Positions 1,598 through 14,980 of a stretch of 14,980 bases of DNA are shown one piece after another. The translations under genes were made by a program, and so were the position numbers. Every line of letters begins with the position of its first letter. The stretch's first letter is position 1. This stretch comes from Pseudomonadota bacterium (GTDB lineage: Bacteria; Myxococcota; Bradymonadia; UBA4248). The notes under the pieces are model-generated. The model made no database searches, had not been told where the DNA came from, and was given only the letters and a program-made list of their open reading frames with translations. The DNA is taken from contig JAGACY010000483.1 in the NCBI GenBank assembly GCA_017613855.1, positions 1-14,980 of the forward strand, in the 5' to 3' direction.

Positions 1598-1623
1598 AAC
1601 CAACAACATAAGGAGAACAAACC

Positions 1624-3675
1624 ATGCCGGAAAGCAAATCACCAGAATCGAGTTCAGGAAGCGGATCTTCTCTTGCCCAAAAGGTCGTCAACAAGGCGAT
1701 GGAATACGTTAACCGCGGCAATCCCTATTGCTGGGGTGGTAAAGGACAAGCACTGACAGACAGCAATGTCAGCACGCTTTCGAGCTGGTACCCGGATGCG
1801 ACCAACAACGGATGGTACAAACATCTTCAGCCGGGTGGACACAGTTACAGCAAAGTCAACCAGAGCGGCATGGAATGCGTGGACTGCTCAGGATTGACAC
1901 ACAAAGTTTTTGAAGAAGTTGCAGGAATCGATATCGGGCACGGAACAAGCAGTCAGATCAACTATAAAAACCAGGATGTTGGCTATTCCAATGCTCAGCC
2001 TGGCGATCTGCTCGTGAATTCAGGCCATGCCGCCATTATGGGAACCGGTGGCATGATGATCGAAGCCAAAGGTAAAGATTATGGCTGTACGCACGACCGT
2101 GCGCCTAAATCGGATATGAAAGCCATGCGTGTCGTCGATGGCGGTTCTTCTGTCACATCGGGCGGCTCCACATCAACAACATCAGGCGGATCCACAACTT
2201 CTGGCGGCAGCTCCCTTCTGACACAGTCGCAAATCAATTCCGCCATCAGTTACAACAAAGCAAACAGCCAGGATATTTGCCTCAAAATTCAGGCAATGGT
2301 CGGCGTCGAACAGGATAATTCCTTTGGCCCAATTACAGTGGGTGCCATTGCCAAATGGCAGCAATCCAAAGGGCTCGAAGTCGATGGATGCTTCGGCCCC
2401 AAATCCAGAGCGACTGCAGAAGCAGATGGATGGTCAGCCACAGCTGCAGCACCGGCAACGACGACAACGACAACACCGGCACCGACAACCACCACAACAA
2501 CACCGGCACCGACAACCACAACGACAACACCGGCAACAACCACAACAACAACTGCACCGGCACCTGCTTCGACAACCACCACTGCCGTCCCCTCCCACAA
2601 ATTGTCGAAGAGTGAAATTAACACTGCCGTCAGTTACAATAAAAATAATAACCAGTCGATTTGCATCAAAATTCAGGCACTTGTCGGTGTCGAACAAGAT
2701 AATTCCTTTGGCCCGATTACCGTTCAGGCCATCGCCGACTGGCAGGCCTCCAAAGGGCTCGAAGTCGATGGCTGCTTTGGTCCTCAATCCAAAAAAGCTG
2801 CCGGCTTTACCTCGGATGCTTCCGCATCTCCAGCCCCTGCTGCGACGCCAGAAACCAAACCCGAAGAAAACAAGCCTGAAGAAACCCAACCCGAAGATAC
2901 GACACCTGTCGCTGTAGATGCGGATGACTATACGGGAACCGATGAAGTTCGCTATGGTCAGAGTAACAACAAAGTTAAAACCCTGCAAAAACTTCTCAAT
3001 AAACACAATGCCGGCCGTTATGGCAATTCCATTGGCGTCGATGGCGATTTCGGCAAGGGCACAGCGACAGCGCTCATGCGTTTTCAGTATTTTTATGTCA
3101 AGGGAACGAACGTCTGTCAGTTCTTTAAAGATTGCCTCAATAACGGCAAAAAAGCCGTTTGTGATGCCGAGACATGGGCAAAACTTCGCATTGCGTCGCC
3201 AAATTATACACATGAGAAGAATAAAGCCATTCCCTTCTCGAAAGGCGTTGAGCTCGATTCTTCGATGACGCCCGATACACCGATTTATTCCGCCTACGAC
3301 AAACCATGCGGCAAAATGTCTGCCGCAGGTGCCCCTCAATTCAATGCCATGGCCAAAGCATCGTTGAACAGTTCTCAGCCTATTTCGGGGGTTGCCAGTT
3401 CATTCCGTGGCATGACCGACGAAGCGACAGTAGCCGCAACGGGCGGTGTCGGCGGAAGCGAGGGTGCCATTGAGCTCTATGTCGACCGCGATTTCAATAC
3501 CTCTTTGGCTGCTGCACCGGGATACAGTAATCACTGCGGCGGCAATGCCGTCGATATTTCCGGATTCTCGAGCAGAACCGACAAACCATCACTTTGGTAC
3601 TGGCTCAGTTCCAATGCATCCACTTACAGTTTCCATCCTTATGACTACGAAACCTGGCATTGGAATTTCTACTAA
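1624..3675 (+). CDS. Two-headed peptidoglycan hydrolase: NlpC/P60 - three PG-binding domains - M15 carboxypeptidase, no signal peptide
   Basis: 683 residues. Residues about 15-170 are an NlpC/P60 cysteine peptidase domain, with nucleophile Cys88 in DCSG and His135 in NSGHAAIMG; this family cuts stem-peptide bonds such as D-Glu-DAP. A Ser/Gly/Thr linker leads to peptidoglycan-binding domain 1 (about 200-266), a Thr/Pro linker (279-320), a near-copy domain 2 (about 327-393), a Pro/Glu linker, and a third, more divergent binding domain (about 443-523). The C-terminus (about 560-683) is an M15 (VanY-like) D-Ala carboxypeptidase domain, with zinc-site motif SNHCGGNAVD (His637, Asp644), Glu676 and WHW (His679). 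AGGAG lies 8 bases before the ATG and an in-frame TAA lies at 1609-1611, so no N-terminal extension can supply a signal peptide. The first residues (MPESKSPESSSGSGSS) are polar. It could be an effector exported by a specialised system, a lysis-released enzyme, or an autolysin with a non-classical route. Domain calls are strong; the biological role is unknown. Confidence 0.9.
   Translation: MPESKSPESSSGSGSSLAQKVVNKAMEYVNRGNPYCWGGKGQALTDSNVSTLSSWYPDATNNGWYKHLQPGGHSYSKVNQSGMECVDCSGLTHKVFEEVAGIDIGHGTSSQINYKNQDVGYSNAQPGDLLVNSGHAAIMGTGGMMIEAKGKDYGCTHDRAPKSDMKAMRVVDGGSSVTSGGSTSTTSGGSTTSGGSSLLTQSQINSAISYNKANSQDICLKIQAMVGVEQDNSFGPITVGAIAKWQQSKGLEVDGCFGPKSRATAEADGWSATAAAPATTTTTTPAPTTTTTTPAPTTTTTTPATTTTTTAPAPASTTTTAVPSHKLSKSEINTAVSYNKNNNQSICIKIQALVGVEQDNSFGPITVQAIADWQASKGLEVDGCFGPQSKKAAGFTSDASASPAPAATPETKPEENKPEETQPEDTTPVAVDADDYTGTDEVRYGQSNNKVKTLQKLLNKHNAGRYGNSIGVDGDFGKGTATALMRFQYFYVKGTNVCQFFKDCLNNGKKAVCDAETWAKLRIASPNYTHEKNKAIPFSKGVELDSSMTPDTPIYSAYDKPCGKMSAAGAPQFNAMAKASLNSSQPISGVASSFRGMTDEATVAATGGVGGSEGAIELYVDRDFNTSLAAAPGYSNHCGGNAVDISGFSSRTDKPSLWYWLSSNASTYSFHPYDYETWHWNFY
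2458..2583 (+). repeat. Low-complexity ACA/ACC-rich tandem repeat encoding a Thr/Pro linker
   Basis: The DNA is a run of Thr codons with regularly spaced Pro-Ala-Pro groups, giving imperfect repeats of TTTTTTPAP (residues 279-320 of the hydrolase). It joins peptidoglycan-binding domains 1 and 2. Such linkers are flexible and often O-glycosylated in exported proteins. The repeats are prone to expansion or contraction, and assembly errors are possible. Confidence 0.85.
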
Positions 3676-3705
3676 AATACCGGTTTTGTATAGGTAGTTG
3701 GACTG

Positions 3706-3749
3706 GCCGTCCCAAAGTTGCTTTGCAAGCGCATTGGGGCGGCTTTTTT
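3706..3749 (+). terminator. Rho-independent terminator of the hydrolase gene
   Basis: GCCGTCCCAA (3706-3715) pairs with TTGGGGCGGC (3734-3743), ten pairs including one G-U. Six T residues (3744-3749) follow immediately. The stem begins 31 bases after the hydrolase stop codon. The 18-base loop holds its own small TTGC/GCAA pairing. Confidence 0.8.
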
Positions 3750-3756
3750 ATGTTCA

Positions 3757-3788
3757 ACGCCGCGTATCGCCATCAGCGATAGCGGCGT
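3757..3788 (-). repeat. Bulged-C hairpin, copy 1 (reverse orientation)
   Basis: ACGCCGC-G-TATCGC (3757-3770) pairs with GCGATA-GCGGCGT (3776-3788) around a 5-base loop. The unpaired G at 3764 is the reverse-strand image of the bulged C found in the other copies. Read on the minus strand the hairpin has the family form: stem, TAT, variable stem, loop, variable stem, ATA, bulged C, stem. It lies just after the hydrolase terminator. Confidence 0.7.
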
Positions 3789-3825
3789 GCGCAGGCCGTA
3801 TGCCCCAAGGGCATAGGCCGCGCGC
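3789..3825 (-). repeat. Bulged-C hairpin, copy 2 (reverse orientation)
   Basis: GGCC-G-TATGCCC (3794-3805) pairs with GGGCATA-GGCC (3809-3819) around a CAA loop, and GCGC (3789-3792) can pair outside with GCGC (3822-3825). The single unpaired G (3798) corresponds to the family's bulged C. It adjoins copy 1 and is followed by a run of A residues (3826-3834). Confidence 0.7.
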
Positions 3826-3908
3826 AAAAAAAAATGCCATTTATGTTCGCAAAAGTTGCTAAAAGTACCCGCTCAGGCGTAATATCCATGCGGTTTTTTT
3901 GTTCTTTT

Positions 3909-3937
3909 GACGAGTTCGTATTTGATTCGAAAACGTC
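3909..3937. promoter_or_regulatory. Imperfect inverted repeat upstream of malK, possible operator
   Basis: GACGAGTTCG (3909-3918) and CGAAAACGTC (3928-3937) are inverted repeats matching at 8 of 10 positions with a 9-base spacer. The site lies 26 bases before the malK start and overlaps a TTGACG element (3907-3912) that could be a -35 box. I found no convincing -10 to go with it. No regulator gene is present in the window, so operator function is inference. Confidence 0.3.
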
Positions 3938-3963
3938 ATTGATAGCAACATGAAGGAGATGGC

Positions 3964-5187
3964 ATGGCAGGACTTACGCTCAAACACATCGTAAAACGTT
4001 ATGGCAATGCGGAACCCACGTTAAAAGGGATTGACCTTGACATTCGTGACGGTGAATTTCTCGTTCTCGTCGGCCCAAGCGGTTGCGGTAAATCGACTTT
4101 GCTCAGAACTATTGCTGGTCTTGAGTCTATTACAGAAGGTGAGTTGTACATTGGCGACAAACTCGTCAATGACGTTCACCCAAAAGATCGCGATATTGCA
4201 ATGGTTTTCCAGAGTTATGCACTTTATCCGCACATGACGATCCGCCGAAATATGGCTTTTGGCCTCGAAGTCCGCAAAATGCCCAAGGAAGAAATCGACA
4301 AACTCGTGGCAGAAGCCAGCGATATGCTGGGCTTGGATGAATATCTCGACAAATTGCCCAAAATGCTGTCCGGTGGCCAGAGACAGCGCGTCGCCATGGG
4401 GCGAGCTATCGTGCGCCGTCCGAAAGTCTTTTTGTTCGATGAACCGCTTTCGAACCTCGATGCTGCGCTGCGTACCCAAATGCGCGTCGAAATTCGCCGT
4501 CTGCACCGCAAGCTCAAAACCACCATCATTTATGTCACGCACGATCAGGTCGAAGCTATGACACTCGCCGATCGCATCGCCGTTTTGAGCGGACGCGATA
4601 AAGAGACGGGCACCAAGAATGCCGGTTATCTGCAGCAGGTTGGTACGCCGCTCGAGCTTTTCCTTACGCCCAAAAATATCTTTGTTGCCGGCTTTATTGG
4701 CAGCCCTGCGATGAATTTTATCGAATCGACAATCGTCATCAAAGACGGCAAAGCCGAAGTCAAAATTGATGAACAAAATCGAATCGAAATCAATTCGGAA
4801 ATCGCCTCCAAATTGAAGAACAACCAAAAGGTCACGCTTGGTATTCGCCCGCAGGATGTTTTGCTCGCCGAAGACGGACGCGAAGCCAATCTCACTGTAG
4901 CCGTCGATGTCATCGAAACACTCGGGTGGGAAAGCCACGTTCACTTTAAACTGGGTGAACATCCCTTCCTCGCAGTGCTCGAAGCCCAGAAGGTTGCCGG
5001 TTATAAAGAAGGCCAGAGTGTCGGCCTGCACATTGCGCCGACGGCGATTCATCTGTTCGACACAGAAACCGGCGAAGCCATCGCACATGGCACGCAGTAC
5101 GACGAAAAGAGTGCCGCCAATGCCGCCAAAGTCATAGGCATTTCAGATAGAGAGCGCAAAAATCTCGAGAATGAAGAAGATGAATAA
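3964..5187 (+). CDS. malK: MalK/UgpC-type ABC transporter ATPase
   Basis: 407-residue cytoplasmic ATPase that powers the sugar importer encoded by the next two genes. Visible motifs are Walker A GPSGCGKST (37-45), Q-loop region VFQSYALYPHMT, signature LSGGQ (135-139), Walker B ending FDEP (Asp159, Glu160), D-loop SNLD, and switch His193 in YVTHDQ. After the nucleotide-binding domain comes the C-terminal regulatory/TOBE region of the CUT1 subfamily (GSPAMNFIE, LGIRPQD). It is about 35 residues longer than E. coli MalK, with an acidic tail ending ENEEDE and a short insertion after ADRIAVLSG. AAGGAG (3953-3958) stands 5 bases before the ATG. It is first in a tight operon with the malE-malF fusion and malG. 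UgpC or MsmK is the alternative name by sequence alone; the MalE-, MalF- and MalG-like partners favour malK. Confidence 0.92.
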   Translation: MAGLTLKHIVKRYGNAEPTLKGIDLDIRDGEFLVLVGPSGCGKSTLLRTIAGLESITEGELYIGDKLVNDVHPKDRDIAMVFQSYALYPHMTIRRNMAFGLEVRKMPKEEIDKLVAEASDMLGLDEYLDKLPKMLSGGQRQRVAMGRAIVRRPKVFLFDEPLSNLDAALRTQMRVEIRRLHRKLKTTIIYVTHDQVEAMTLADRIAVLSGRDKETGTKNAGYLQQVGTPLELFLTPKNIFVAGFIGSPAMNFIESTIVIKDGKAEVKIDEQNRIEINSEIASKLKNNQKVTLGIRPQDVLLAEDGREANLTVAVDVIETLGWESHVHFKLGEHPFLAVLEAQKVAGYKEGQSVGLHIAPTAIHLFDTETGEAIAHGTQYDEKSAANAAKVIGISDRERKNLENEEDE

Positions 5188-5191
5188 GGAG
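5186..5191 (+). promoter_or_regulatory. Ribosome-binding site that fixes the fusion gene start
   Basis: AAGGAG overlaps the malK stop codon (TAA 5185-5187) and stands 6 bases before ATG 5198. The upstream in-frame ATG at 5171 lies inside malK and lacks such a site, so 5198 is the better start. The overlap suggests translational coupling. Confidence 0.75.
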
Positions 5192-5197
5192 ACTGTC

Positions 5198-7807
5198 ATG
5201 CACGAAACCAACCTTTCGCGCAGCTGCGAAAAACACGGTCGCCTCATTTCCATTATGGCGCGGTGCTTACTCGCTTTGCTGTGCCTTTTTCCGCTGACGG
5301 CAAGTGCGCAGGAGATTACGCTCGATCTGTGGCATGCCTACCGCGGTGCCGAAGCTGACGCAATCCAAAGTGTGATCAATGACTTCGAACGAGTCAATCC
5401 TGGTATTAAAGTCAAGGTTCTGCCCGTACCCAGCGAGACATTTCAAAATAAGGTGTTTACTGGAGTACCGCAGGGCAGTGGGCCGGACGCCTTTATTGCA
5501 GCGCACGATGTCATCGGTAATTGGGCCGACAATAAAATTATTGCCGATTTGACGCCTTATCTGGATCCTAGCGATATCAATGCCTACCACGAAACCACAG
5601 TCAAGGCACTTCGCTACAAGCCCAGTACCCGAAACCCAGAAGGTTCCAAAGAGGGCATTTATGCCATTCCTCTGGCCTATAAGAGCGTGGTGCTTTTTTA
5701 CAACAAAGATCTCGTGCCCAATCCGCCAAGGACGACCGATGAGCTTCTCAGGTATCTCGAAGCCAAAACGGTGATGAGCTGTCCCAAAGAGGATACTAAC
5801 TGCAAACCGCATTTTGGCCTCGTCTATGAGAATACCAACCTCTTTTATCATAGTGTGTGGCTCAATGGTTTTGGTGGGTATCTGTTCGATGAGAATGGCG
5901 CAATTCAGCTCAAAAACGAAGGCAATGCCAAATCCCTTGAGTTTGCAAAAAAACTTAATCAGTACATTCCCAGTGGTATCGACGGTGCCCGCATTAAAAC
6001 GCTGTTTATCGACGGCGATACCGACATGCTCATCAACGGCCCGTGGTTTATGGGCGATCTTCCCGAGCAAAATGGCGGCCCCGGCCTGCATTACGGTGTA
6101 GCCACGCTCCCGCAGATTACCGAGCCCGGTGCTCCTGCCGATGCTTACGGTTCGCCTTATGTGACGGCCGAAGGCATCTACATGGCCCGCGATACCAAAT
6201 ACAGCATCGAACTTTCGCGAATGAAAGAAACTGACAAGGAGTATGCGGCCAAAAAAGCTGCCGTCGATGCCCGCCGCGATGCCACAATCAAACTTATGAA
6301 ATACATTGCTGCCGATGGTGCCTACAAGCGCATGATCGATGGCAAACAGATGGTTGCTTACAAACCCGCATACGATCAGCTCAAGGCAGACAATTCCCCT
6401 AAAACCGCATTTATCAAAGAAGTTGCACCGGTTTTCCTGGCTCAGCTCGATCACGCTCAGCCTTCGAGTAACCGTCCCGAAATGGGGTCGCTCTGGGCCT
6501 CCATGCAGCAGGCACTTCAAAAATCCCTCTTCGGCGGTCCTTCAGGTGAAACACCTTATCTGCTCTTTTTGTTGCTCTCGTTGATTATTGCCGGTTTTGT
6601 CTTCCTGGCAAAATCGACTAACCCAAGTGTGACCACGCCCGAAAAACATAAAATGCATATCGGTGCTACGGTTCTTTCATTTGCGTTGGCCGTTCCCGTA
6701 TTTGTGTGGCTTCGCAGTGTTCAGGGCAACAATAAGAATATCGATGTCATGAGCGCATTGGCCGAGGCTCAGAGCCGCGTGGCCATGCTCAAACCGCCTC
6801 CCGTCGAAGATGGCAATCCCGCAGTACTCGTCACGATTATCTGCGGAATTCTCGCAATTTTGTGCATTCTCGGCATTCGCGCCTACAAAAAACACAAAGC
6901 AGCCAACATCGAGTATACCGATAACAGAGTCGCTGCCGCATTCGTATCACCGGCCATCATCGGCATGATTATTCTCGTTTTCCTGCCTTTCGTCATCGGT
7001 GCATTTCTCTCATTGTTTGCTTACGAAAACGGCGAATTTGTTTATGTCGGTCTGCAGAACTTTGCACGTCTGTTCTCGTCCGATCAGGCATCGTTCCTCG
7101 ATTCGATGTCCTTCTACTTTACCTTTATTGTGACTGTCCTCTGGACTGTGACCAACGTTGCACTGCACGTCGGCATTGGTATGTGCCTGGCTCTGCTGCT
7201 GCGTGAACCCTGGCTTAAACTCAAGGGCATTTACCGCGTGCTCCTCATCGTCCCCTGGGCCATGCCCAACTACATCACGGCTTTGATTTGGCGCGGTATG
7301 TTTGACCATAGCTTTGGTGCCATCAACGGCATTCTGACCTCCATTGGTCTCGAACCCGTCGAATGGTACAACGAGTTCCTCACGTCGTTTGCCGCCAACC
7401 TCACGACCAATACCTGGCTCGGTTTCCCGTTCATGATGGTCGTCACACTTGGCGCGCTGCAGGCCATTCCCCGCGATCTCGAAGATGCTGCCGCCGTCGA
7501 CGGTGCCAGTGCATGGCAGCGTTTCCGCCACGTCACTTTCCCATTGCTTAAGCCTGCATTGATGCCTTCGGTCGTCCTTGGTTCGATTTGGACATTCAAT
7601 GCATTCAACATCATTTACCTCGTCAGCAAGGGGGCGCCCGACGGCTCCACCGAAATCCTCGTTTCCGAAGCATACAAATGGGCTTTCGAGCGCCAGTATC
7701 AGTACGGATATGCCGCAGCTTATGCCATGGTCGTCTTCGTCATTCTTGTGCTCTATTCAAAACTCACTCAGTTCGTGCTCAAAGATAACACAGTGGAGGC
7801 AAAATAA
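5198..7807 (+). CDS. malE-malF: MalE-MalF fusion: maltose-type binding protein joined to its own permease
   Basis: 869 residues. After an N-terminal extension, a hydrophobic segment ends in TASAQ, with likely signal peptidase cleavage after Ala37. Residues about 38-440 form a group 1 solute-binding protein with MalE-like motifs: AHDVIGNWADN, VVLFYNKDLVPNPPRT and INGPWFMGDL. Three extra membrane helices follow (about 454-473, 488-507, 542-562). They enclose a cytoplasmic loop with several Lys/His and a short periplasmic loop. A Lys/Arg-rich segment (RAYKKHK) then leads into a MalF core (about 575-869). This has YRVLLIVPWAMPNYI, NTWLGFPFMMV and the EAA loop beginning at Glu762 (EDAAAVDGAS), which contacts the ATPase. 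The charge pattern places the binding domain outside and the EAA loop inside. The large periplasmic P2 loop of E. coli MalF is not evident. malK ends 10 bases upstream and malG starts on the stop codon (TAATG). Maltose or maltodextrin is the likely substrate; other oligosaccharides are possible. Confidence 0.9.
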   Translation: MHETNLSRSCEKHGRLISIMARCLLALLCLFPLTASAQEITLDLWHAYRGAEADAIQSVINDFERVNPGIKVKVLPVPSETFQNKVFTGVPQGSGPDAFIAAHDVIGNWADNKIIADLTPYLDPSDINAYHETTVKALRYKPSTRNPEGSKEGIYAIPLAYKSVVLFYNKDLVPNPPRTTDELLRYLEAKTVMSCPKEDTNCKPHFGLVYENTNLFYHSVWLNGFGGYLFDENGAIQLKNEGNAKSLEFAKKLNQYIPSGIDGARIKTLFIDGDTDMLINGPWFMGDLPEQNGGPGLHYGVATLPQITEPGAPADAYGSPYVTAEGIYMARDTKYSIELSRMKETDKEYAAKKAAVDARRDATIKLMKYIAADGAYKRMIDGKQMVAYKPAYDQLKADNSPKTAFIKEVAPVFLAQLDHAQPSSNRPEMGSLWASMQQALQKSLFGGPSGETPYLLFLLLSLIIAGFVFLAKSTNPSVTTPEKHKMHIGATVLSFALAVPVFVWLRSVQGNNKNIDVMSALAEAQSRVAMLKPPPVEDGNPAVLVTIICGILAILCILGIRAYKKHKAANIEYTDNRVAAAFVSPAIIGMIILVFLPFVIGAFLSLFAYENGEFVYVGLQNFARLFSSDQASFLDSMSFYFTFIVTVLWTVTNVALHVGIGMCLALLLREPWLKLKGIYRVLLIVPWAMPNYITALIWRGMFDHSFGAINGILTSIGLEPVEWYNEFLTSFAANLTTNTWLGFPFMMVVTLGALQAIPRDLEDAAAVDGASAWQRFRHVTFPLLKPALMPSVVLGSIWTFNAFNIIYLVSKGAPDGSTEILVSEAYKWAFERQYQYGYAAAYAMVVFVILVLYSKLTQFVLKDNTVEAK

Positions 7808-8694
7808 TGGCTAAACAAGAATGGGTAGAAGATTCCGTCGGCCTCAACAAAACCGACCGCTGGATCAAACAAATCGTCTACAATCTCATCCTCATCCTCG
7901 TCTGTATTGCCGTCCTCTATCCCGTTTTCTGGGTCGTTCAGATGGCACTCACGCCCAATGATATGGCCGGCCTCGGCGGAAATTCCGAAAATATTCAATT
8001 TACACTTGACAATTTCCGCTATGTCATGGGCCACACCAATCAGGAAGGCCAAAACCTCTTTTTGCATCAGCTCTGGAATTCGATTATCGTCTCGGTAATT
8101 ACCACGATCATCGGCGTTTTACTTGCCTGTACTGCTGCTTACGGCTTTGCACGACTCAACTTTATTGGTCGACAGATGGGATTGCAGGCCTTCCTGGTCA
8201 CGCAGATGTTCCCCGGCGTCGTCATGATGATCCCCCTCTACATCATCCTCGGCAAACTCGGTCTTACCGATAATGTCTATGGCCTCGTCCTCGTCTACAG
8301 CGTCACGGCGCTTCCTTTCTGCGTCTGGAATCTCAAGGGCTACTTCGATACGATTCCCAAAGAACTTGAAGAAGCTGCCATTGTCGATGGCGCATCGCGC
8401 CTCAAAATATTTACGACGATCGTCCTGCCGCTCGCTCGCCCGGCCATCGCCATTACTGCACTTTTCTCGTTCATGACCGCATGGAACGAATTCATCCTCG
8501 CCGCCACTTTCATGAACAACGAAATCAACTACACACTGCCGGTGGCCCTTAAACAATACATTGGCGAGCAGTCCGTTCAGTACGGCTACTTTGCAGCAGG
8601 CGCAATTCTCGTCAGTATTCCCATCATGGCGCTCTTCTTTGCGCTGCAAAAACATCTCGTCGGCGGCCTCACTGCCGGTGGCGTCAAAGGATAA
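7807..8694 (+). CDS. malG: MalG-type ABC transporter permease
   Basis: 295-residue inner-membrane permease with six predicted helices, the second channel half of the sugar importer. The EAA loop begins EEAAIVDGAS (Glu188-Ser197) and continues through LPLARPA. The C-terminus GLTAGGVKG is the ending I recall for E. coli MalG; there it reaches into the ATPase interface. GGAGG (7795-7799) lies 7 bases before the ATG, and the start overlaps the previous stop codon by one base. Length and motif order are normal for the family. It is the last gene of the operon and is followed by repeat hairpins, one of which resembles a terminator. Confidence 0.93.
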   Translation: MAKQEWVEDSVGLNKTDRWIKQIVYNLILILVCIAVLYPVFWVVQMALTPNDMAGLGGNSENIQFTLDNFRYVMGHTNQEGQNLFLHQLWNSIIVSVITTIIGVLLACTAAYGFARLNFIGRQMGLQAFLVTQMFPGVVMMIPLYIILGKLGLTDNVYGLVLVYSVTALPFCVWNLKGYFDTIPKELEEAAIVDGASRLKIFTTIVLPLARPAIAITALFSFMTAWNEFILAATFMNNEINYTLPVALKQYIGEQSVQYGYFAAGAILVSIPIMALFFALQKHLVGGLTAGGVKG

Positions 8695-8705
8695 CTTTTT
8701 TGGGG

Positions 8706-8727
8706 GAGACGTGTTACGACACGTCTC
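8706..8727. repeat. Hairpin directly after malG
   Basis: GAGACGTG (8706-8713) pairs perfectly with CACGTCTC (8720-8727) around a 6-base loop, starting 11 bases after the malG stop. No U-tract follows. It does not have the TAT/ATA bulged-C form of its neighbours. It may protect the mRNA 3' end or be part of a composite repeat. Confidence 0.6.
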
Positions 8728-8732
8728 TACTC

Positions 8733-8756
8733 GCTATTGGCCTTTGGCCAATACGC
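8733..8756 (+). repeat. Bulged-C hairpin, copy 3
   Basis: GC-TATTGGCC (8733-8742), loop TTT, GGCCAATA-C-GC (8746-8756). The C at 8754 is the single unpaired base. Same plan as the copies near 3757-3825 and 12713-12770, but with its own distal stem (TGGCC/GGCCA). Confidence 0.7.
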
Positions 8757-8762
8757 TCGCTT

Positions 8763-8802
8763 AACGCGGCTATCGTTGCACGATACGCCGCGTTTTCTTT
8801 TT
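8763..8802 (+). terminator. Bulged-C hairpin, copy 4, with U-tract: likely malG operon terminator
   Basis: AACGCGGC (8763-8770) and TATCGT (8771-8776) pair with ACGATA (8780-8785) and GCCGCGTT (8787-8794) around a TGC loop. C8786 is bulged. TTCTTTTT (8795-8802) follows. With 14 pairs and a U-rich tail it should terminate plus-strand transcription. It is also the most complete member of the dispersed hairpin family. Confidence 0.7.
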
Positions 8803-8903
8803 GGGGGCAACAATGTGACCTCATTGTTTGTAAAAAAAATTTACTTTTTAGTGTCACATCTTCCACCATTTCTTTAGAATTTATCTTTGGTTTTGCAAAT
8901 TCA

Positions 8904-8934
8904 ATTGCGCATTGCGCATTGCTAATTGCACATT
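8904..8934. repeat. Heptanucleotide tandem repeat array 1
   Basis: Four consecutive 7-base units, ATTGCGC, ATTGCGC, ATTGCTA and ATTGCAC, are followed by ATT. A further single ATTGCGC unit stands at 8947-8953. The array is in the 424-bp gene-free spacer between malG and the lipoprotein gene. No open frame with coding character covers it. Confidence 0.8.
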
Positions 8935-8965
8935 ACCCCACATCCTATTGCGCATTCATTCCGAT

Positions 8966-9023
8966 CCGGGCGCGCCTGCGGCACACCCGGCTATAACCTA
9001 CGAATGAAACGCCTTCCAGGCGT
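8966..9023. repeat. GC-rich pair of hairpins between the heptamer arrays
   Basis: CCGGG (8966-8970) pairs with CCCGG (8986-8990), enclosing an inner GCC-TGC-GGC stem (8974-8982). Then ACGCCT (9009-9014) pairs with AGGCGT (9018-9023) around a TCC loop. Between them is CTATAACCTACG. The segment is richer in GC than its AT-rich surroundings and looks like another dispersed-repeat module. I do not recognise a named family. Confidence 0.45.
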
Positions 9024-9050
9024 ATCGATCTTAATGAATTGTCTCTCTCA

Positions 9051-9080
9051 ATTACGCATTACGCATTACGCATTGCGCAT
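9051..9080. repeat. Heptanucleotide tandem repeat array 2
   Basis: Units ATTACGC, ATTACGC, ATTACGC and ATTGCGC run without interruption from 9051 to 9078. A degenerate unit ATTCCGC (9097-9103) lies just before the ribosome-binding site of the lipoprotein gene. The unit differs from array 1 by one base (A for G at position 4). Confidence 0.8.
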
Positions 9081-9118
9081 GAGAAAACAATTCTGCATTC
9101 CGCATTACAGGAGGTCGT

Positions 9119-12100
9119 ATGATGAAACGATATTTCTGGCTGCTCTCCTTGTTTGTTTCTCTTTCGATGGTTGCCTGCGAATCGGACAGTGGGAGCAAGG
9201 CGCAGAATCCGGATCCCGATAAATGCTCAGAAAGCTGTACGCCGGGGGAAAAACAATGCAATGACGCCGGTGATGGCCTCCTCGAATGCATTGAAACTGA
9301 TGGCTGTACCCAATGGCAAAAAACATCATGCCCCAATGATAAACCATCCTGTGAAAACAACGAATGCATTGCCCAATGCAGTGATTGCGCTATCGGTGAG
9401 AAAAAGTGCACCGATTCTGGAGATGGCATTCTTGAATGTGTCAAGACCGATGGCTGTACCCAATGGCTGGTATCTGAATGCCCAAGTGATAAGCCGGTAT
9501 GTGAAAATAATGAATGTACGGCACAATGTACGGATTGCACCGCCGGAGAAATCAAATGCACGGATTCTGGTAATGGTCTTCTCGAATGTATCGAAGGCGA
9601 AGACTGCAACCACTGGCAGGAAACTGCATGTCCAAGTTATAAGTCTGCATGCGTAAATAATGAGTGTGTTGCACAATGTACAGATTGCACCGTCGGGGAA
9701 AAACAATGTACCGATTCGGGCGACGGCATACTCGAATGTACAGAAGTCGATGGCTGTACCCAATGGCAGGAAACGTCATGCCCCGATGATACCGCATGTC
9801 ATAACAATGAATGCACAGCACAATGCAATGAGTGTGTGTTAGGTGAAAAACAATGCACCGATTCGGGCGATGGCATTCGTGAATGCATCGAAGTCGATGG
9901 CTGCACAGAATGGCAGGAAATCGCTTGCCCCGATGATAAGCCTGTGTGCGATAACAATGAATGTAAAGCGCTGTGCAATCAGTGTACCGTTGGTGAAAAA
10001 CAATGCAATGAATCCGCTGATGGCATTCTTGAATGTAAAAATGAAAATGGCTGTGCCCAATGGAAAGAAACTGCATGCTCCAAAGACAAGCCGACGTGTG
10101 ATAACAATGAATGCAAAGCGCAATGTAAAAACGAATGCAAAGAGAATGAAAAACGCTGCAGTGGCGCAGATATCCAGCAGTGTACCATGGTCGATGGCTG
10201 CCTAAAATGGCAAACCACAAGTACTTGTGCTGAATCTGAGGGCGTCTGTCAGCCCGGTACCTATAAATGCGGGTATGCGTGCGGTGATCCCAAAGGCGAA
10301 TCCTGCAAGCCATTCTCGATTGTCTTTTTGCCCGATACCCAGAGATATACACAAGCTCAGCTTAAAAGTTACAATGGAAAATATGAAAATCGTTTCCTAG
10401 AGCAAACAAAATATATCGTCAAACAGGCAAAAGATAATAATATCAAAATGGTCATTCATCTTGGGGATATTACGAATTTTAATGAAGACGAGGAATGGAA
10501 AGTCGCTTCGACAGCTATGAAAGAACTTGCCAATGCAAATATCCCTTATCTCATGTTGCCAGGGAATCATGATTTCCGCATTGCTCGCAGTAACACTGAA
10601 GGGTTCGATGGTATCTACGATCGGACTGCTCGTTCTGCTGGCTTCAACAAATATTTTAAAGCAGCTAATGTCAAAAATTGGCCTACAGACACACAATTCG
10701 GCAAGTATGTGTCAACGACAAATTCCTATGCCACGATGACATTGGGAAATCTCAAATTCCTGTTCATTTCGCTTGAATTTGCAGCCAGAAAGGATGTGGT
10801 TTGCTGGGCAGAGAGACTTATTAAAAAACATCCCGATCACTATGTGATTATCTCAACACACAATTACCTAAAAAGGCCGAATAAAGACGAAACGCCCGAT
10901 TACTTAACCGATGGTGCTTACCTTCCACTCACCCCAACTGGTGTCAGCGGAAAAGAATTGGCAAACGAACTGGCCAAACGTTTTAGCAATGTTATCCTGG
11001 TCGCAAGTGGACATGTAGTATCCACTGCCCACCGACTTCAAAATGGCACAAATGGCAACCAATTTATTGAAATGGTCGTCGACTACTCTTCCGAAGCAGA
11101 CGGAACATGCGGAAGCAGCGCAAGTGGTGGTGTAAAGCCCAATTCAGGTAATGGATGGATGCGAATTTTGACCATTGATCCTAAGAGTGCAAGCAAAAAT
11201 TTCCAGTTTAAAACCGTTTCCTCCATGGCAAAATCAAAGTTTTCCACAGGAAAAAAAGAATTCTATTGCACAACAAGATATGACGCAGATCCTTCGAATG
11301 ATCCACATCACTTTACGGAGTTCATCGATCTGAGGGCACCTGCTAATGGCCAATATAAAGTGAGCAGCTACGCATTCACTGCCCGTGAAATGAACAAAGA
11401 AACCAAGGGATATCAACTGAATCCTGCAATTGGCGTCAATCGCAGCACGGGAGATTTCGTCGCTGTCTGGCAGGACAATTCCACGACAGGAACAAAAGAT
11501 GATGATGGAAAAACTCCAGATGGCAAATCTCAAAACTACGATATTGCTGCTCGCATATTCTGTCGTACCGGCTGTAATCAGCTCGACAAATCCGGTGACC
11601 AAATTGCACAGTTTTTCGTCAATGATAATAAAAAAGGCCATCAGTATTCGCCTGCGGCAGCAATGGATGATAACGGCAATTTCGTCGTCGTTTGGGTCGA
11701 TGATCAAAATAATACCGGCAACGGTCAAATTGTGATGCGCGGCTTCGATCCCTTGGGCAACGAACGATTTAAGACGACGACGGTGAATACCAATACCAAA
11801 GGCAATCACAATAAACCGCAAATTGCAATGACCAAAGACGGCGATTTCATCGTCGCATGGCAAGATGCTTCCGCATCTGCCAAAACCCCACAGATCTATG
11901 TCCGTGGTTTTAACAGCAAGGGAACCGAAAAATTCGCACAGCACAATGTCCTCGATGCCGATGAGGGAATTCGAGAAAATCCGGATATCGCCATCGCAAA
12001 TGATGGATCGTTTGTCGTCACATGGCAGGATGATACCGATTCGAACAACAGCTATCAAATTCGTGCAAGAGCCTTTAACGCGGATGGAAAAGCCAATGGC

Positions 12101-12706
12101 GATGTCTTTACCGTTAATTCACAAGCCAGCGGCCAACAAATGAATCCTTCGATTGCCATGAACCCCGAAACCGGCACTTTCTTCATCACTTACGAAGATA
12201 ATAATAATGATAATAAAACTTATGGAATTAAGGTTCGAGGATATAACAAAGATAAATCGACGGTATTTGATGATCAATATATTAAATTCAAAAAATTGAC
12301 TTTTAAAGATAAAGATAAAAAAGAATATACTGTAGAATATATCAATACGCCTGTTAAAGGCCAGCCACAACAATACTCGGATGTCTGTATAGATCAAAAG
12401 GGCAATGCCTATATTACATGGTTTGGTCTGGAACATCGTACGATAGACCCCAGTAAAACAAATGAGAAAATCGTTGACCTTTCTCCGGATGTACAAAAAA
12501 TTACAATAAAGTACGAAAATGGAAAATATACACTCGCTGAAAAGCCAAGCCCTGTTAATTCTATTCCGTATGAAGTAGAAAAAGACCAATCTAACGTCGT
12601 CAACAAACACCCCGTCATTGGATGCAACAATGCTGGCCATGTCATTCTTTGGAGAGAAATGCTCGACAAAAAGAAAGTGTCCGAAATCTATGGACGTGGA
12701 TTTTAG
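9119..12706 (+). CDS. Large lipoprotein: seven Cys-rich modules, calcineurin-like phosphoesterase, propeller-like C-terminus
   Basis: 1195 residues. A lipoprotein signal ends SMVAC, with lipidated Cys20. Residues 36-388 are seven modules of about 50 residues, each with about eight cysteines and a pattern like GEKQC-TDSGDGILEC-VDGCTQW-C-C-NNEC. Residues about 400-655 form a metallophosphoesterase domain: PDTQ (Asp406, Gln408), HLGD (Asp450), GNHD (Asn483, His484), STHN (His581) and SGHV (His632). The first motif is D-x-Q rather than D-x-H and the last lacks the second His of GHxH. From about 768 on, seven repeats of the type NPxIAM-x-x-x-G-x-F-V-V-x-W-Q-D occur at 55-78-residue spacing, suggesting a beta-propeller. 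AGGAGG (9109-9114) lies 4 bases before ATG 9119 and 7 before ATG 9122, so the second Met may be the true start. The protein is presumably cell-surface or periplasmic; its substrate is unknown. Some regions (12180-12340) are more AT-rich than the rest. Confidence 0.88.
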   Translation: MMKRYFWLLSLFVSLSMVACESDSGSKAQNPDPDKCSESCTPGEKQCNDAGDGLLECIETDGCTQWQKTSCPNDKPSCENNECIAQCSDCAIGEKKCTDSGDGILECVKTDGCTQWLVSECPSDKPVCENNECTAQCTDCTAGEIKCTDSGNGLLECIEGEDCNHWQETACPSYKSACVNNECVAQCTDCTVGEKQCTDSGDGILECTEVDGCTQWQETSCPDDTACHNNECTAQCNECVLGEKQCTDSGDGIRECIEVDGCTEWQEIACPDDKPVCDNNECKALCNQCTVGEKQCNESADGILECKNENGCAQWKETACSKDKPTCDNNECKAQCKNECKENEKRCSGADIQQCTMVDGCLKWQTTSTCAESEGVCQPGTYKCGYACGDPKGESCKPFSIVFLPDTQRYTQAQLKSYNGKYENRFLEQTKYIVKQAKDNNIKMVIHLGDITNFNEDEEWKVASTAMKELANANIPYLMLPGNHDFRIARSNTEGFDGIYDRTARSAGFNKYFKAANVKNWPTDTQFGKYVSTTNSYATMTLGNLKFLFISLEFAARKDVVCWAERLIKKHPDHYVIISTHNYLKRPNKDETPDYLTDGAYLPLTPTGVSGKELANELAKRFSNVILVASGHVVSTAHRLQNGTNGNQFIEMVVDYSSEADGTCGSSASGGVKPNSGNGWMRILTIDPKSASKNFQFKTVSSMAKSKFSTGKKEFYCTTRYDADPSNDPHHFTEFIDLRAPANGQYKVSSYAFTAREMNKETKGYQLNPAIGVNRSTGDFVAVWQDNSTTGTKDDDGKTPDGKSQNYDIAARIFCRTGCNQLDKSGDQIAQFFVNDNKKGHQYSPAAAMDDNGNFVVVWVDDQNNTGNGQIVMRGFDPLGNERFKTTTVNTNTKGNHNKPQIAMTKDGDFIVAWQDASASAKTPQIYVRGFNSKGTEKFAQHNVLDADEGIRENPDIAIANDGSFVVTWQDDTDSNNSYQIRARAFNADGKANGDVFTVNSQASGQQMNPSIAMNPETGTFFITYEDNNNDNKTYGIKVRGYNKDKSTVFDDQYIKFKKLTFKDKDKKEYTVEYINTPVKGQPQQYSDVCIDQKGNAYITWFGLEHRTIDPSKTNEKIVDLSPDVQKITIKYENGKYTLAEKPSPVNSIPYEVEKDQSNVVNKHPVIGCNNAGHVILWREMLDKKKVSEIYGRGF
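9224..10283 (+). repeat. Seven in-frame ~150-bp tandem repeats coding Cys-rich modules
   Basis: Modules begin at 9224, 9377, 9527, 9677, 9824, 9974 and 10124, so unit lengths are 153, 150, 150, 147, 150 and 150 bases. The middle modules are very alike in protein and DNA; the seventh is most divergent and leads into the phosphoesterase domain. All differences are multiples of three, keeping the frame. Modules of this kind could form disulfide-stabilised stalks. Confidence 0.9.
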
Positions 12707-12712
12707 ATGCGC

Positions 12713-12738
12713 GGCTATGGGGCTTCGCCCCATACGCC
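12713..12738 (+). repeat. Bulged-C hairpin, copy 5
   Basis: GGC-TAT-GGGGC (12713-12723), loop TTC, GCCCC-ATA (12727-12734), bulged C12735, GCC (12736-12738). It starts 7 bases after the lipoprotein stop codon. Same architecture as copies 1-4, with a different but fully complementary distal stem. Confidence 0.75.
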
Positions 12739-12748
12739 TTGCGAAAGC

Positions 12749-12779
12749 GGCTATCCCTTCGGGATACGCCCCTTTTTCT
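12749..12779 (+). terminator. Bulged-C hairpin, copy 6, with U-tract: likely terminator of the lipoprotein gene
   Basis: GGC-TAT-CCC (12749-12757), loop TTC, GGG-ATA (12761-12766), bulged C12767, GCC (12768-12770). CCTTTTTCT follows, then more T-rich sequence. It pairs with copy 5 as a doublet and probably terminates the lipoprotein transcript. Confidence 0.65.
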
Positions 12780-12905
12780 TTATTTTGTCACACCTGACGC
12801 CAAACAAAGCTTTTCAAACTCAGCTTCACTCAGACCCGCTTCTGCGGCTGCTGTTTCCAGAGAAAGAATATTTATTTTATACAAATCAGCCAGATTGAGC
12901 AATTT
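12780..12905 (-). pseudogene. Possible remnant of a small gene (helical, antitoxin-like C-terminus)
   Basis: On the minus strand a 41-codon open stretch between TGA (12906-12908) and TAA (12780-12782) encodes a sequence with good helical amphipathy. It includes LLNLADLYKINILSLETAAA, then EAGLSEAEFEKL and a final SGVTK. The pattern LYK-x3-ISLE-x-AA-x2-AGLS-x2-EF resembles the C-terminal helix-turn-helix-like end of UPF0175-type antitoxins as I remember them. Adding one A to the A-run at 12903-12906 would join it to the upstream minus-strand frame (VDIHLKASDE), so a frameshifted gene is possible. There is no ATG or good ribosome-binding site in frame. It could also be chance; I rate the family resemblance as weak. 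Confidence 0.3.
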
Positions 12906-12908
12906 TCA

Positions 12909-13077
12909 TCACTCGCTTTTAAATGAATGTCAACAAAACAGTATGAACATAAAATCAATTTTTTAGATAGGATACTGAACATACAGGCTATCATTTGCAA
13001 GTGATGTAATTAGAGTGTAATCAGCATGCGTTCTGTGCTAGAGCATGCATTACGGCAGGTCATCGATCTCTGCCTTC
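12909..13077. other. AT-rich spacer before the exonuclease gene, no clear feature
   Basis: No plausible gene on the plus strand. GCATGC occurs twice (13024-13029 and 13043-13048) flanking 13 bases, which could form a weak stem. TTGCAA (12995-13000) and TGTAAT (13016-13021) are only 15 bases apart, so I do not call a promoter although one must lie hereabouts or upstream. Confidence 0.4.
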
Positions 13078-13082
13078 AGGAG
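13078..13082 (+). promoter_or_regulatory. Ribosome-binding site that fixes the exonuclease start
   Basis: AGGAG lies 7 bases before ATG 13090. An in-frame ATG at 13045 would add 15 residues (MHYGRSSISAFRSVR) not expected in this family and spans this site, so 13090 is preferred. Confidence 0.8.
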
Positions 13083-13089
13083 TGTGCGT

Positions 13090-13890
13090 ATGAAAATTTC
13101 AATGGCTTCATGGAATATCAATGGCATCAGGGCAGCTTCTGCCAAAGATGATTTTCAATGGTTCTACGATAATACCAATGACATCATTGCTTTTCAGGAA
13201 ACAAAGGCTTCGCCGGAACAAATCCCCGAAGAAGTCAGAAATAAAGAGGGATATCAATCTTTTTTTGCCACATCCGTTGTCAAAAAAGGCTATTCAGGAA
13301 CGGCGGTCTTTTCAAAGATGCCTCCCCTATCCGTTGAAATCGAACTTCCCGACAAGACCTGGCAGGGCGAAGGCAGAATCGTGCATCTCGAATTTGAGAA
13401 ATTTCACTTCTTCAACGGTTATTTTCCGAATGGCGGCGAACAAATCAAAAATCCAGACGGGTCATTTTTTTATAAACGACTCGAATATAAAATGGGGTTC
13501 TTCGAATATTTTTTGAACTATATACAAAGCCTCAGAAAGCACAAACCGATTGTCGTGTGCGGTGATTTTAATATTGCTCATAAAGAAATTGATATTGCAC
13601 GCCCAAAACAAAATATGAACAGCACTGGCTTTTTACCGGTAGAACGTGCTTTTCTGGATCGATTTACAGAGGCCGGATATGTCGATACATTCCGTCATAT
13701 TCATGGCAATGTCAAAGACCGCTACTCGTGGTGGTCCTATAAAATGGGGGCGCGCAAAAATAATGTCGGTTGGAGAATTGATTATTTTTTTGTTTCGGAT
13801 GAACTCAAGGATCGAATTCTCGATGCAGACATTGAAGATGGCGTCTATGGTTCGGATCATTGCCCGGTCAATCTGTTGCTCGAAATTTAG
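13090..13890 (+). CDS. xth: Exodeoxyribonuclease III / AP endonuclease (ExoA-Xth family)
   Basis: 266 residues, the usual size for this cytoplasmic base-excision repair enzyme, which cuts DNA at abasic sites and trims 3' ends. Motifs seen in order are SWNINGIRA (Asn9, Asn11), FQETKA (Glu37, metal ligand), NGYFPNG (Tyr111), GDFNIAH (Asp159, Asn161), WRIDYFFVS (Asp231) and GSDHCPV (Asp256, His257 catalytic pair). All the expected catalytic residues of the endonuclease/exonuclease/phosphatase fold are present. It begins with MKISMASWN, typical for the family. It stands alone, with no operon partner: 199 bases separate its RBS-defined start region from the last gene remnant and 213 bases follow it. 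Confidence 0.95.
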   Translation: MKISMASWNINGIRAASAKDDFQWFYDNTNDIIAFQETKASPEQIPEEVRNKEGYQSFFATSVVKKGYSGTAVFSKMPPLSVEIELPDKTWQGEGRIVHLEFEKFHFFNGYFPNGGEQIKNPDGSFFYKRLEYKMGFFEYFLNYIQSLRKHKPIVVCGDFNIAHKEIDIARPKQNMNSTGFLPVERAFLDRFTEAGYVDTFRHIHGNVKDRYSWWSYKMGARKNNVGWRIDYFFVSDELKDRILDADIEDGVYGSDHCPVNLLLEI

Positions 13891-13915
13891 ACGAAGAAAA
13901 TGTCTATTTGCAGAG

Positions 13916-13955
13916 CAGAAAACTGCAATGCAGTCCAGAAAACTGCAATGCAGTC
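13916..13955. repeat. Two tandem 20-bp repeats, each holding a 13-bp palindrome
   Basis: CAGAAAACTGCAATGCAGTC occurs twice back to back (13916-13935 and 13936-13955), followed by CAG. Each copy contains ACTGCA-A-TGCAGT (13922-13934 and 13942-13954), a perfect palindrome around one A. The centres are exactly 20 bases apart, about two helical turns, so two dimers would sit on one DNA face. This fits a tandem operator for the gene at 14104, or a repeat-derived 3' end for the exonuclease. No T-run follows, so it is a poor terminator. Confidence 0.65.
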
Positions 13956-14040
13956 CAGTATTCTGAACACAATCAAATTGCATCACAATTTCGATTTCGT
14001 TAAACTGCACGATATGTTGGCTGCTCGTCGTGAGACGGGT

Positions 14041-14074
14041 TGTCATAGATGACAAAAATGCATACAGATGCATT
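14041..14074. promoter_or_regulatory. Two adjacent inverted repeats upstream of the small secreted protein gene
   Basis: TGTCAT-AG-ATGACA (14041-14054) and AATGCAT-ACAG-ATGCATT (14057-14074) are perfect inverted repeats 2 bases apart. TTGTCA (14040-14045) is a 5-of-6 match to a -35 box, but no good -10 lies at the right distance. They stand 30-63 bases before the start at 14104, where operators or mRNA leader structures usually are. Confidence 0.35.
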
Positions 14075-14103
14075 CAAATTCATTGTGCAAAAGGTAGTCA
14101 GAC

Positions 14104-14439
14104 ATGAAAATAAAGTTCGTATTGCCTGGACTCATGGCGCTTGCCTTATCTGGGGTGGGTATGGGCGAGGCATTTGCCTCCTGTGACAATTTGGAGAAGA
14201 ATACCGAATGGAACACCCAGCTCAGCATTCTTTCGGATGCCTATAAAGTATGTGCTCAAATGTGTAATTCTGATAAAGATGTTAATGAATGCAAAATTAA
14301 ATTTCAAACGAAAAATATTACAAATGCCATTGTACTAATGGCTCGTATGAAATATCCAAATGCGAATCAAATTGCACCAGCGTGTCTAATGAATGCTATC
14401 CTTAGCCTAAATTCTAACCAGATTAATATATTTTGTTAA
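14104..14439 (+). CDS. Small secreted six-cysteine protein, function unknown
   Basis: 111 residues. A clear Sec signal peptide (MKIKF, hydrophobic core LPGLMALALSGVGM, then EAFAS) probably cleaves after Ala25, leaving about 86 residues. The mature part has six cysteines (27, 50, 54, 63, 94, 111), the first two residues from the cleavage site and the last the C-terminal residue. This suggests three disulfides and a periplasmic or extracellular life. The short hydrophobic segment AIVLMARM is not long enough for a membrane helix. I do not recognise a family. AAGG (14091-14094) lies 9 bases before the ATG, a modest ribosome-binding site. The gene has its own upstream palindromes and downstream terminator, so it is likely monocistronic. 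The signal peptide and cysteine pattern argue that it is a real gene. Confidence 0.8.
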   Translation: MKIKFVLPGLMALALSGVGMGEAFASCDNLEKNTEWNTQLSILSDAYKVCAQMCNSDKDVNECKIKFQTKNITNAIVLMARMKYPNANQIAPACLMNAILSLNSNQINIFC

Positions 14440-14503
14440 AAATATAATTTCTCTAAAAAACACCCATTCCATCATTCTCCCCAATAATCCTACATGATTA
14501 ACC

Positions 14504-14531
14504 AGGCAAGGTGGCATAAGCCACCTTGCTT
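14504..14531 (+). terminator. Strong hairpin after the small secreted protein gene
   Basis: GCAAGGTGGC (14506-14515) and GCCACCTTGC (14520-14529) form a perfect 10-bp stem with an ATAA loop, extendable by a G-U and an A-U pair. The 3' flank TTCATTCAT is only partly T-rich, so termination is likely but not certain. The stem could serve both directions. Confidence 0.6.
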
Positions 14532-14595
14532 CATTCATAACCCTTTATTTAGCCTGCATTTCCCCAGTTCACAACAATCATTCAATCACTCACCA

Positions 14596-14980
14596 ATGAA
14601 AAAGCTCATTTACGCCAGTTTTGTCTTTTCTTTCGTGATACTCTCTGGTTGCCAGATGCTTTTCGGCACCTCCGATGACCAATCGACCTCAGAGCCTGCA
14701 GTGCAAACCGTCAAAGACGACATTCCTCCCCAGGAAACAGATTTAAAAAATGTAGAACCGCAGGCACCTGACGAACATGCTCCGTCGCAGGAAATCCCCA
14801 AAGAGGAAATTGCAAAAGATTTGCCGATCCCCTCCGGAGAACAACCCACGGCAGAACCGAACGATACAGTTGATACGGCAGCTGCACCGGTTCCACCTGC
14901 TCCCGACAATACCCAAAATGAGCCCCAATTCAATAATCCCGATGAACTTAAACAATATATTGCTGAACATCAGGCCGAGA
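14596..14980 (+). CDS. Lipoprotein with Pro/Glu-rich region, 3' end beyond the window
   Basis: The frame stays open from ATG 14596 to the window end (128 residues seen). MKKLIYASFVFSFVILSGC is a textbook lipoprotein signal, with lipobox LSGC and lipidated Cys19. The rest is acidic and rich in Pro, Glu, Asp, Gln and Thr (for example VPPAPDNTQNEP), typical of a disordered tether after the lipid anchor. The last residues (PDELKQYIAEHQAE) begin to look helical, so a folded domain may follow. No Shine-Dalgarno sequence precedes the ATG; the 15 bases before it are CAATCATTCAATCAC-like and purine-poor. Function cannot be told from this part. Confidence 0.75.
   Translation, partial: MKKLIYASFVFSFVILSGCQMLFGTSDDQSTSEPAVQTVKDDIPPQETDLKNVEPQAPDEHAPSQEIPKEEIAKDLPIPSGEQPTAEPNDTVDTAAAPVPPAPDNTQNEPQFNNPDELKQYIAEHQAE

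Follow-up and report, generated by a model that had tools for sequence, protein, structure and literature searches.

A stretch of about 15 kb from an uncultured myxobacterium (contig JAGACY010000483.1, positions 1 to 14,980; below, the window) contains six short hairpins in three doublets, each with one C left unpaired at the same place in the stem, and this raises the question of what such hairpins are and what has kept their structure. Data from the window and from its relatives show that the bulged-C hairpins form a family that is real, abundant and structurally selected. The family is REP-like in behaviour (REP, repetitive extragenic palindromic) and lies outside the described tagged REP families. 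Its existence and abundance, the specificity of the bulge, covariation of the stems, placement, a loop bias tied to the element itself and a depletion of neighbouring copies on the same strand are established. As an explanation we favour, with a probability of about 0.5, REP-like hairpins of single-stranded DNA whose base would be read by a strand-specific protein that can excise DNA between same-strand copies, some copies having been recruited as terminators. The preliminary description of this DNA proposed a family like REP/BIME elements, which are often moved by a RAYT transposase; the REP-like part, namely copy number, intergenic and 3′-end bias and structural selection, stands, and the link to RAYT is unsupported.

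The six hairpins lie where they had been placed before, as both sequence and pattern matches confirm. The first doublet is on the minus strand: hairpin 1a (3757–3788; core 3762–3783, inner stem TATCGC, 5-nt loop), whose bulged C corresponds to G 3764 on the plus strand, stands head-to-tail with hairpin 1b (3789–3823; CTAT..ATACG core 3797–3816, bulged base G 3798 on plus). The other two doublets are on the plus strand. They consist of hairpins 2a (8733–8756, bulged C 8754, short outer stem) and 2b (8763–8794, bulged C 8786, 8-bp outer stem), with a terminator-like T run in the sequence at 8793–8802, and of hairpin 3a (12710–12743; core 12714–12737, bulged C 12735) and hairpin 3b (core 12750–12769, bulged C 12767), with a T run from 12773. 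Five matches to GCTATN{4,24}ATACGC were found in the window against a mean of 0.08 in 200 shuffles, none of which had five or more. The relaxed pattern CTATN{4,24}ATACG gave seven matches (shuffle mean 0.81), that is, the six hairpins and one unpaired match at 3917–3945. What the six hairpins have in common is limited to CTAT and ATACG, since 1b has a different outer pair and falls outside the strict pattern; this, and the place of the first doublet on the minus strand (a bulged G on plus), correct the preliminary description. When the doublets were folded as single-stranded DNA on both strands, the expected structures appeared in all three (z −4.1 to −9.3), with the unpaired base at the same place. 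No Rfam family exceeded the gathering threshold in the window, and the literature searched gave no match of the bulged-C hairpin to any described family and no REP description for this lineage, in agreement with the earlier remark that the consensus was not recognised as a described family.

The family was scored by pattern searches and pair counts. Genomes searched carry G numbers and stretches from relatives carry L numbers, all from fragmented metagenome-assembled genomes (MAGs); whole-genome numbers are pattern matches in which chance and overlapping matches are counted, and the control is the pattern read backwards. Matches to GCTAT..ATACGC numbered 940 in G001 (control 96), 798 in G002 (115), 797 in G003 (91), 1039 in G004 (160), 559 in G005 (67) and 809 in G007 (33). 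Other members of the order of G001 had 855 (G013) and 284 (G014) matches and, in the case of G015, only 6 (control 10), so that eight of the nine genomes of this order, as the search delimits it, are rich (284–1039 matches against 21–160 in the controls). G006, a MAG with 72% identity that is not among these nine, had 6 matches, and five more distant genomes had 2–26, near their controls. Among 282 genomes sampled from the larger group at the level of the phylum only eight were hairpin-rich; the next highest count was 50 with a control of 84, and some further genomes exceeded their own small controls, none with more than 50 matches. Counts far above control bear out the expectation that a genome-wide scan would find more copies, and a palindrome of 20–40 nt in high copy and mostly between genes is what a REP element is.

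The bulge itself is specific. In sampled contigs of three genomes, fully paired CTAT..ATA-C-G hairpins with the extra C numbered 52, 81 and 79, and the same core without a bulge 10, 3 and 3; the preliminary description would have been refuted by a bulge absent as often as present, and these counts do not refute it. Another bulge base, or a bulge on the opposite side, occurred 0–5 times, and seven alternative cores of the same layout 0–18 times. A census of intergenic inverted repeats in three genomes gave gcTAT..ATAcgc as the commonest context in each. In 72 distinct gap-free 28-mer copies, 93.9% of pair cells hold standard pairs, and there are 191 double-change cells against 65.9 after shuffling and 37 in the best slid control, which upholds the proposal that stems covary around a fixed bulge. 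These copies did not exceed the shuffles in how many pairs show a double change (8 against 7.1) or in how many further pair types occur (24 against 22.8). The CTAT and ATACG columns are invariant there because the copies were selected by those letters. Such a REP-scale family is defined by structure more than by sequence, and sequence-based repeat finders would tend to miss families of this kind.

Stem interiors and loops were surveyed in a sample of seven genomes (20 contig stretches each, 2.0 Mb in all, with gene calls from an in-house hexamer script). Here, as in most samples, a threshold of 2 or 3 on paired minus mismatched positions drops weak hairpins; the weaker ones are kept in the three-genome profile of flanks and pair orientation and in the three-genome count of distances to gene ends. 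Among 448 intergenic interiors 372 are distinct. The loop is closed by C-G in 373 of the 448 and by G-C in 40, and the first inner pair is T-A in 167, C-G in 143, G-C in 126 and A-T in 1. Three-base loops make up 268 of the 448, and their leading type is GNA on the strand of the bulged G, which is TNC on the motif strand (117 of 268; GNA on the motif strand, 10 of 268). C-GNA-G is an unusually stable DNA hairpin loop. TNC loops occur in 34 of 137 copies that are sense to co-directional genes and in 40 of 131 that are antisense. Because the loop bias goes with the element and does not depend on its orientation to the gene, the constraint on the hairpin looks to be at the DNA rather than the RNA level. 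As to base composition, the motif strand is poor in A on both flanks, with ~5–10% A just upstream (sampled contigs of G001, G004 and G007), and in the seven-genome set the 5′ arm hardly ever begins with A.

Placement agrees with the intergenic bias expected beforehand. Good hairpins lie between genes in 448 of 491 cases, where coding density is 83–88%. Their density is highest in convergent gaps (97 per 33.8 kb), followed by co-directional (268 per 152 kb) and divergent ones (41 per 56.4 kb), counts which leave out 42 of the 448 hairpins with no gene on one side of the contig. Close pairs (<80 nt apart) are head-to-tail in 151 of 157 cases in the seven genomes, and in 67 of 69 in the first three; the gap is 13–16 nt in 116 of the 157. 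The last hairpin of a doublet has at least five outer pairs in 43 of 65 cases and a T run behind it in 30, and the first hairpin has these features in 13 and 9 of 64, respectively.

These data bear on whether the hairpins are elements of RNA, that is, intrinsic terminators or stabilisers of mRNA 3′-ends selected on the transcript. The longer outer stem and T run of the last hairpin in doublets speak for selection on RNA, and so does a bias to 3′-ends: in co-directional gaps of three genomes 114 of 148 hairpins are nearer the 3′-end of the upstream gene, at a median of 60 nt past the stop codon. After malG, moreover, family hairpins with differing stems are found in the window and in L001–L005 and L007, and an ordinary terminator-like hairpin stands there in L006. 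However, orientation relative to co-directional genes is symmetric in the seven genomes (137 sense, 131 antisense), and T runs follow only a minority of copies in three genomes (26 of 72 sense, 11 of 76 antisense). Selection on the transcript would predict neither a loop bias equal in both orientations nor the depletion of same-strand neighbours, and we regard it as unlikely to explain the family. Orientation is not tied to genes, which speaks against the simple terminator idea as an account of the family. Judged from their sequence, some copies do appear to serve secondarily as terminators, chiefly those that close a doublet and have both an extended outer stem and a T run. Two window copies had been described as doubling as terminators; T runs do follow 2b and 3b, but a consensus promoter and terminator scan of the window (12 sites against 10.8 in shuffles) listed neither.

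The most surprising result of the analysis is the depletion of neighbouring sites on the same strand. Only 12 of 94 site pairs 0.2–4 kb apart are same-strand, against a mean of 46.5 and a minimum of 31 in 2000 permutations of labels within genomes. Neighbouring clusters were same and opposite in 1 and 37 cases at 100 bp–2 kb, 10 and 39 at 2–4 kb, 14 and 35 at 4–6 kb, 12 and 20 at 6–8 kb, and 14 and 7 at 8–12 kb. The frequency of same-strand pairs climbs from 0 per kb at distances under 1 kb to 15–18 per kb at 5–7 kb, and opposite pairs are not scarcer at short range. Where at least one gene intervenes, pairs closer than 4 kb are 12 same and 80 opposite; where none does, they are 13 same and 12 opposite. 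Gene direction does not explain the alternation, for between co-directional genes each of the two opposite arrangements occurs 46 times (the same arrangements, 14 and 5). The opposite excess appears in six of seven genomes, with p <0.05 in five. Independent listings from G005 and from other contigs of G013, in which rows with an unpaired interior were left out by eye, gave among the matches listed 23 opposite and 9 same pairs within 0.13–8 kb, a weaker trend. In the window, sites 1 and 2 are in opposite orientation.

Such a depletion might arise with no dedicated enzyme, through ordinary slippage during replication or through recombination of short direct repeats, and the weakening of the depletion with distance, until it is gone by ~6–7 kb, would be in keeping with this. 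However, the sites have little sequence in common. On average, the longest word found in both members is 9.2 nt for random pairs, 9.8 nt for opposite pairs and 14.1 nt for the 12 surviving same-strand pairs, so the survivors are not the less similar ones; exclusion driven by homology is thus unsupported, and slippage seems to us an improbable cause.

The favoured reading supposes that the element is active when single-stranded DNA folds into the hairpin. The base of this hairpin, GC-G-TAT / ATA-GC with a G extruded from one strand, would be read by a strand-specific protein, and the rest of the stem would need pairing only and would hence drift by compensatory change. The same protein would cut and rejoin at same-strand hairpins and delete the DNA between them. 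DNA between same-strand sites would then be at risk of loss and arrangements that lose genes would be purged: tandem copies with nothing between them would be tolerated, and same-strand copies flanking a gene would disappear, leaving neighbours in opposite orientation. Some copies, chiefly those at the end of a doublet whose outer stem is longer and leads into a T run, may have been recruited as transcription terminators. The single-stranded form, the protein, excision and mobility are what we infer. In structure, the hairpins resemble substrates of Y1 (HUH) enzymes, being irregular and strand-asymmetric with a conserved unpaired base. IS200/IS605 transposases join their two ends on one strand, and an enzyme that joined two hairpins in this way would lead to the purging of same-strand arrangements. 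A bolder version, which we offer tentatively and as possible rather than probable, is that the hairpins are substrates of a single-stranded DNA excision or strand-transfer system that reads a fixed foot and an extruded base but hardly any of the stem sequence, that genes cannot long sit between same-strand sites less than ~4 kb apart, and that sites alternate chromosome-wide. If the depletion is a true mark of an excising enzyme, orientation statistics would be a simple test for single-stranded DNA processing at dispersed hairpins, which is of interest for those REP elements that have no known transposase.

Several observations weigh against excision by such a protein. No enzyme was found that tracks the presence of hairpins; the Y1_Tnp model had no match in G006, G007 and G013, of which G007 and G013 have 809 and 855 hairpin matches. 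Replication slippage or an insertion bias would suit the depletion as well, and the effect of an intervening gene cannot be separated from that of distance. Where genes of a stretch differ in direction or number more than four, opposite pairs exceed same-strand ones only slightly (44 opposite, 34 same), alternation is absent in G014 (3 same, 3 opposite), and in the window itself sites 2 and 3 are on the same strand, 3.9 kb apart, with a gene between. Flanking direct repeats of at least 5 nt were present in 23 of 222 cases against 13.4 expected, which gives no general target duplication, and those of 7 nt number 5 against 0.8 expected. IS200/IS605-type elements are expected to favour one replication strand, and no link of the hairpins to GC skew or a leading-strand proxy was found (agreement 160 of 347). 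In addition, all genome counts derive from fragmented MAGs.

An ordinary REP family mobilised by a RAYT, the RAYT having since disappeared from some genomes or escaped notice in incomplete ones, would suit the REP-like abundance and placement. Y1_Tnp (PF01797) matches are present in G001 (3), G002 (1), G003 (1), G004 (4), G005 (1) and G014 (4). The RAYT model (NF047646, REP_Tyr_transpos) matches in five of the eight hairpin genomes (G001, G002, G004, G005 and G014), exceeds its cut-off in three (G001, G004 and G014) and has no match in G003, G007 and G013. In G015, where hairpins are at control level, the Y1_Tnp model has three matches that pass the Pfam cut-off, and the RAYT model has four that fall short of its own. 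With the RAYT protein of G005 as query, the protein itself and weaker relatives were recovered in G001, G002, G004, G005, G007 (E 4e-4), G014 and G015, and among six Y1 proteins scanned four exceeded the IS200/IS605 cut-off and none the RAYT cut-off. Because Y1 and RAYT matches are so patchy across the hairpin genomes, RAYT is rejected as a shared cause. Some RAYT-like genes do have hairpins nearby, as in L115, where three hairpins lie 29–97 nt past the stop codon, and the TnpA-REP of Escherichia coli needs the REP bulge, according to the part of PMC8266576 drawn on here. However, a hairpin lies within 300 nt of 8 of 18 Y1/RAYT-like genes, several of them at contig ends, and of 434 of 1141 genes in general (0.38), which is no enrichment; by class, the numbers are 5 of 10 for RAYT-like genes, 3 of 7 for IS200-like genes and 0 for one weak gene. 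The search for a RAYT-like Y1 gene flanked by the hairpin, which the preliminary description called for, therefore came out at background. Neither a GTAG nor a CGTC tag is in the core or in the flank profile; the census gave a separate GTAG palindrome in low count in the same genomes, and CGTC beside some hairpins only. A RAYT link is thus unsupported, for lack of Y1/RAYT model matches in two hairpin-rich genomes (G007 and G013), of enrichment and of tags, and we give RAYT mobilisation little credence. Among these genes, a RAYT-type Y1 domain lies inside open frames of 1300 and 552 codons in G001:C245 (L119, L194) and G004:C16 (L120, L193), the frame of L119 also having, by eye, an NPPF motif as in DNA methylases, and the IS200-like Y1 genes of L111, L112 and L116 adjoin apparent restriction-modification genes, judged by eye from translations.

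Comparison of orthologous sites indicates their persistence. Five of the six window hairpins are shared with L001, with identical inner stems and with loops changed in all five. Hairpin 2a is missing there, and by eye L001 has a single CTCGC where two flank 2a in the window, which may be an empty site. At 119 orthologous 3′-ends hairpins were present in both genomes in 25 cases, in one in 25 and in neither in 69; 15 of the 25 shared ends are malG pairs, 2 more are window–L001 pairs, and the 8 independent ones include several that differ in orientation or distance. Sites are thus kept among close relatives and turn over at greater evolutionary distance. That the hairpins are sites of a host architectural protein or topoisomerase bounding small chromosomal domains, with alternation as domain geometry, would suit the alternation on a 1–6 kb scale and the sites kept at orthologous gene ends between the window and L001, but it comes without a candidate protein, has no need of a sequence-free stem with a GNA loop and does not fit the tolerance of same-orientation copies with no gene between, and is very unlikely.

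Some copies belong to a composite subtype, with a C block, ~7 nt, the hairpin, ~6 nt and a second C block. This frame was matched 210 times in G007, 77 in G004, 42 in G001 and 48 in G013, with 0 in each control. A G block stands just upstream in most sampled composites, in a tally that counted overlapping matches rather than copies. In 90 sampled composites with duplicates removed there are 26 left frames, 16 right frames and 78 distinct interiors, and 13 copies of G007 with one identical frame have 12 different interiors, 11 of the 13 paired; the frame is therefore kept as the interior changes. Examples of a hairpin set among a G block, a C block and a second C block are L142 (9700), L148 (8218) and L164 (10152). 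As a lead only, this order of blocks may allow a foldback or intrastrand triplex. By eye, it resembles the foldback order of the intrastrand triplex motifs TM/PIT, and it differs from the TM-ECO consensus, as printed in the part of PMC4666352 used here, in a spacer of at least ~30 nt that holds the bulged hairpin (by eye, no search run).

Hairpin 2a is immediately preceded, at 8706–8730 on the minus strand, by a GTAG-tagged palindrome of the canonical REP type, identified from sequence, tag census and fold and outside the bulged-C family. It belongs to a second palindrome family around AGACGT..ACGTCT (also L002 at ~9660–9830, and L176), which occurs beside bulged-C hairpins and may pair with them in doublets. 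Among the genes of the window, one frame at 5171–7807 carries SBP_bac_1 and BPD_transp_1, that is, a solute-binding protein fused to a MalF-type permease; this malE–malF fusion gene has 90% identity to the Myxococcales MAG UBA4248 and 72–88% to six further MAGs (best segment). A protein of 1195 aa encoded at 9119–12706 has Cys-rich tandem repeats and a metallophosphatase domain, and its internal repeats give multiple BLAST matches to L001.

Comparison with known systems places the family near several of them. Integron attC sites have extruded bases at fixed places, keep their structure while sequence varies, are recognised as a folded single strand and carry GTT/AAC boxes. The bulged-C hairpins share the extruded base at a fixed place and the structure kept over varying sequence; unlike attC, they are dispersed and not in a single array, and attC is rejected as their identity, since the invariant columns hold no GTT/AAC boxes and no integron integrase exceeded the cut-off in eight genomes. 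REP elements of the GTAG and CGTC superfamilies are, in the account given in the part of PMC3733652 cited here, high-copy intergenic palindromes located mainly in co-directional and convergent gaps downstream of coding regions. Our family is likewise short, intergenic, in high copy and at gene 3′-ends, with units that have alternative complementary stem residues, but it has no tag, and its stem is nearly free of sequence constraint except for CTAT/ATACG. REP dimers are mainly head-head or tail-tail, unlike the head-to-tail close pairs here (151 of 157), and a cognate RAYT flanked by the repeat was not seen in the hairpin genomes, which are fragmented MAGs with one weak match in G007. Compared with REPINs, as far as the part of PMC3116915 used here describes them, the conserved ends belong to a single hairpin and the pairs are direct, whereas REPINs are inverted REP pairs tied to RAYTs; common to both are conserved outer parts, an interior selected for length and hairpin formation, and compensatory changes. 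In the part of PMC8266576 considered here, TnpA-REP and the transposases of IS608 and ISDra2 make use of the loop or of a stem base that is unpaired or mismatched, and their action is confined to one strand. For the bulged-C hairpins neither a tracking enzyme nor a guide tetranucleotide has been identified, but like the substrates of E. coli TnpA-REP, IS608 and ISDra2 they are a foldable single strand with an unpaired base in the stem (PMC8266576, same part).

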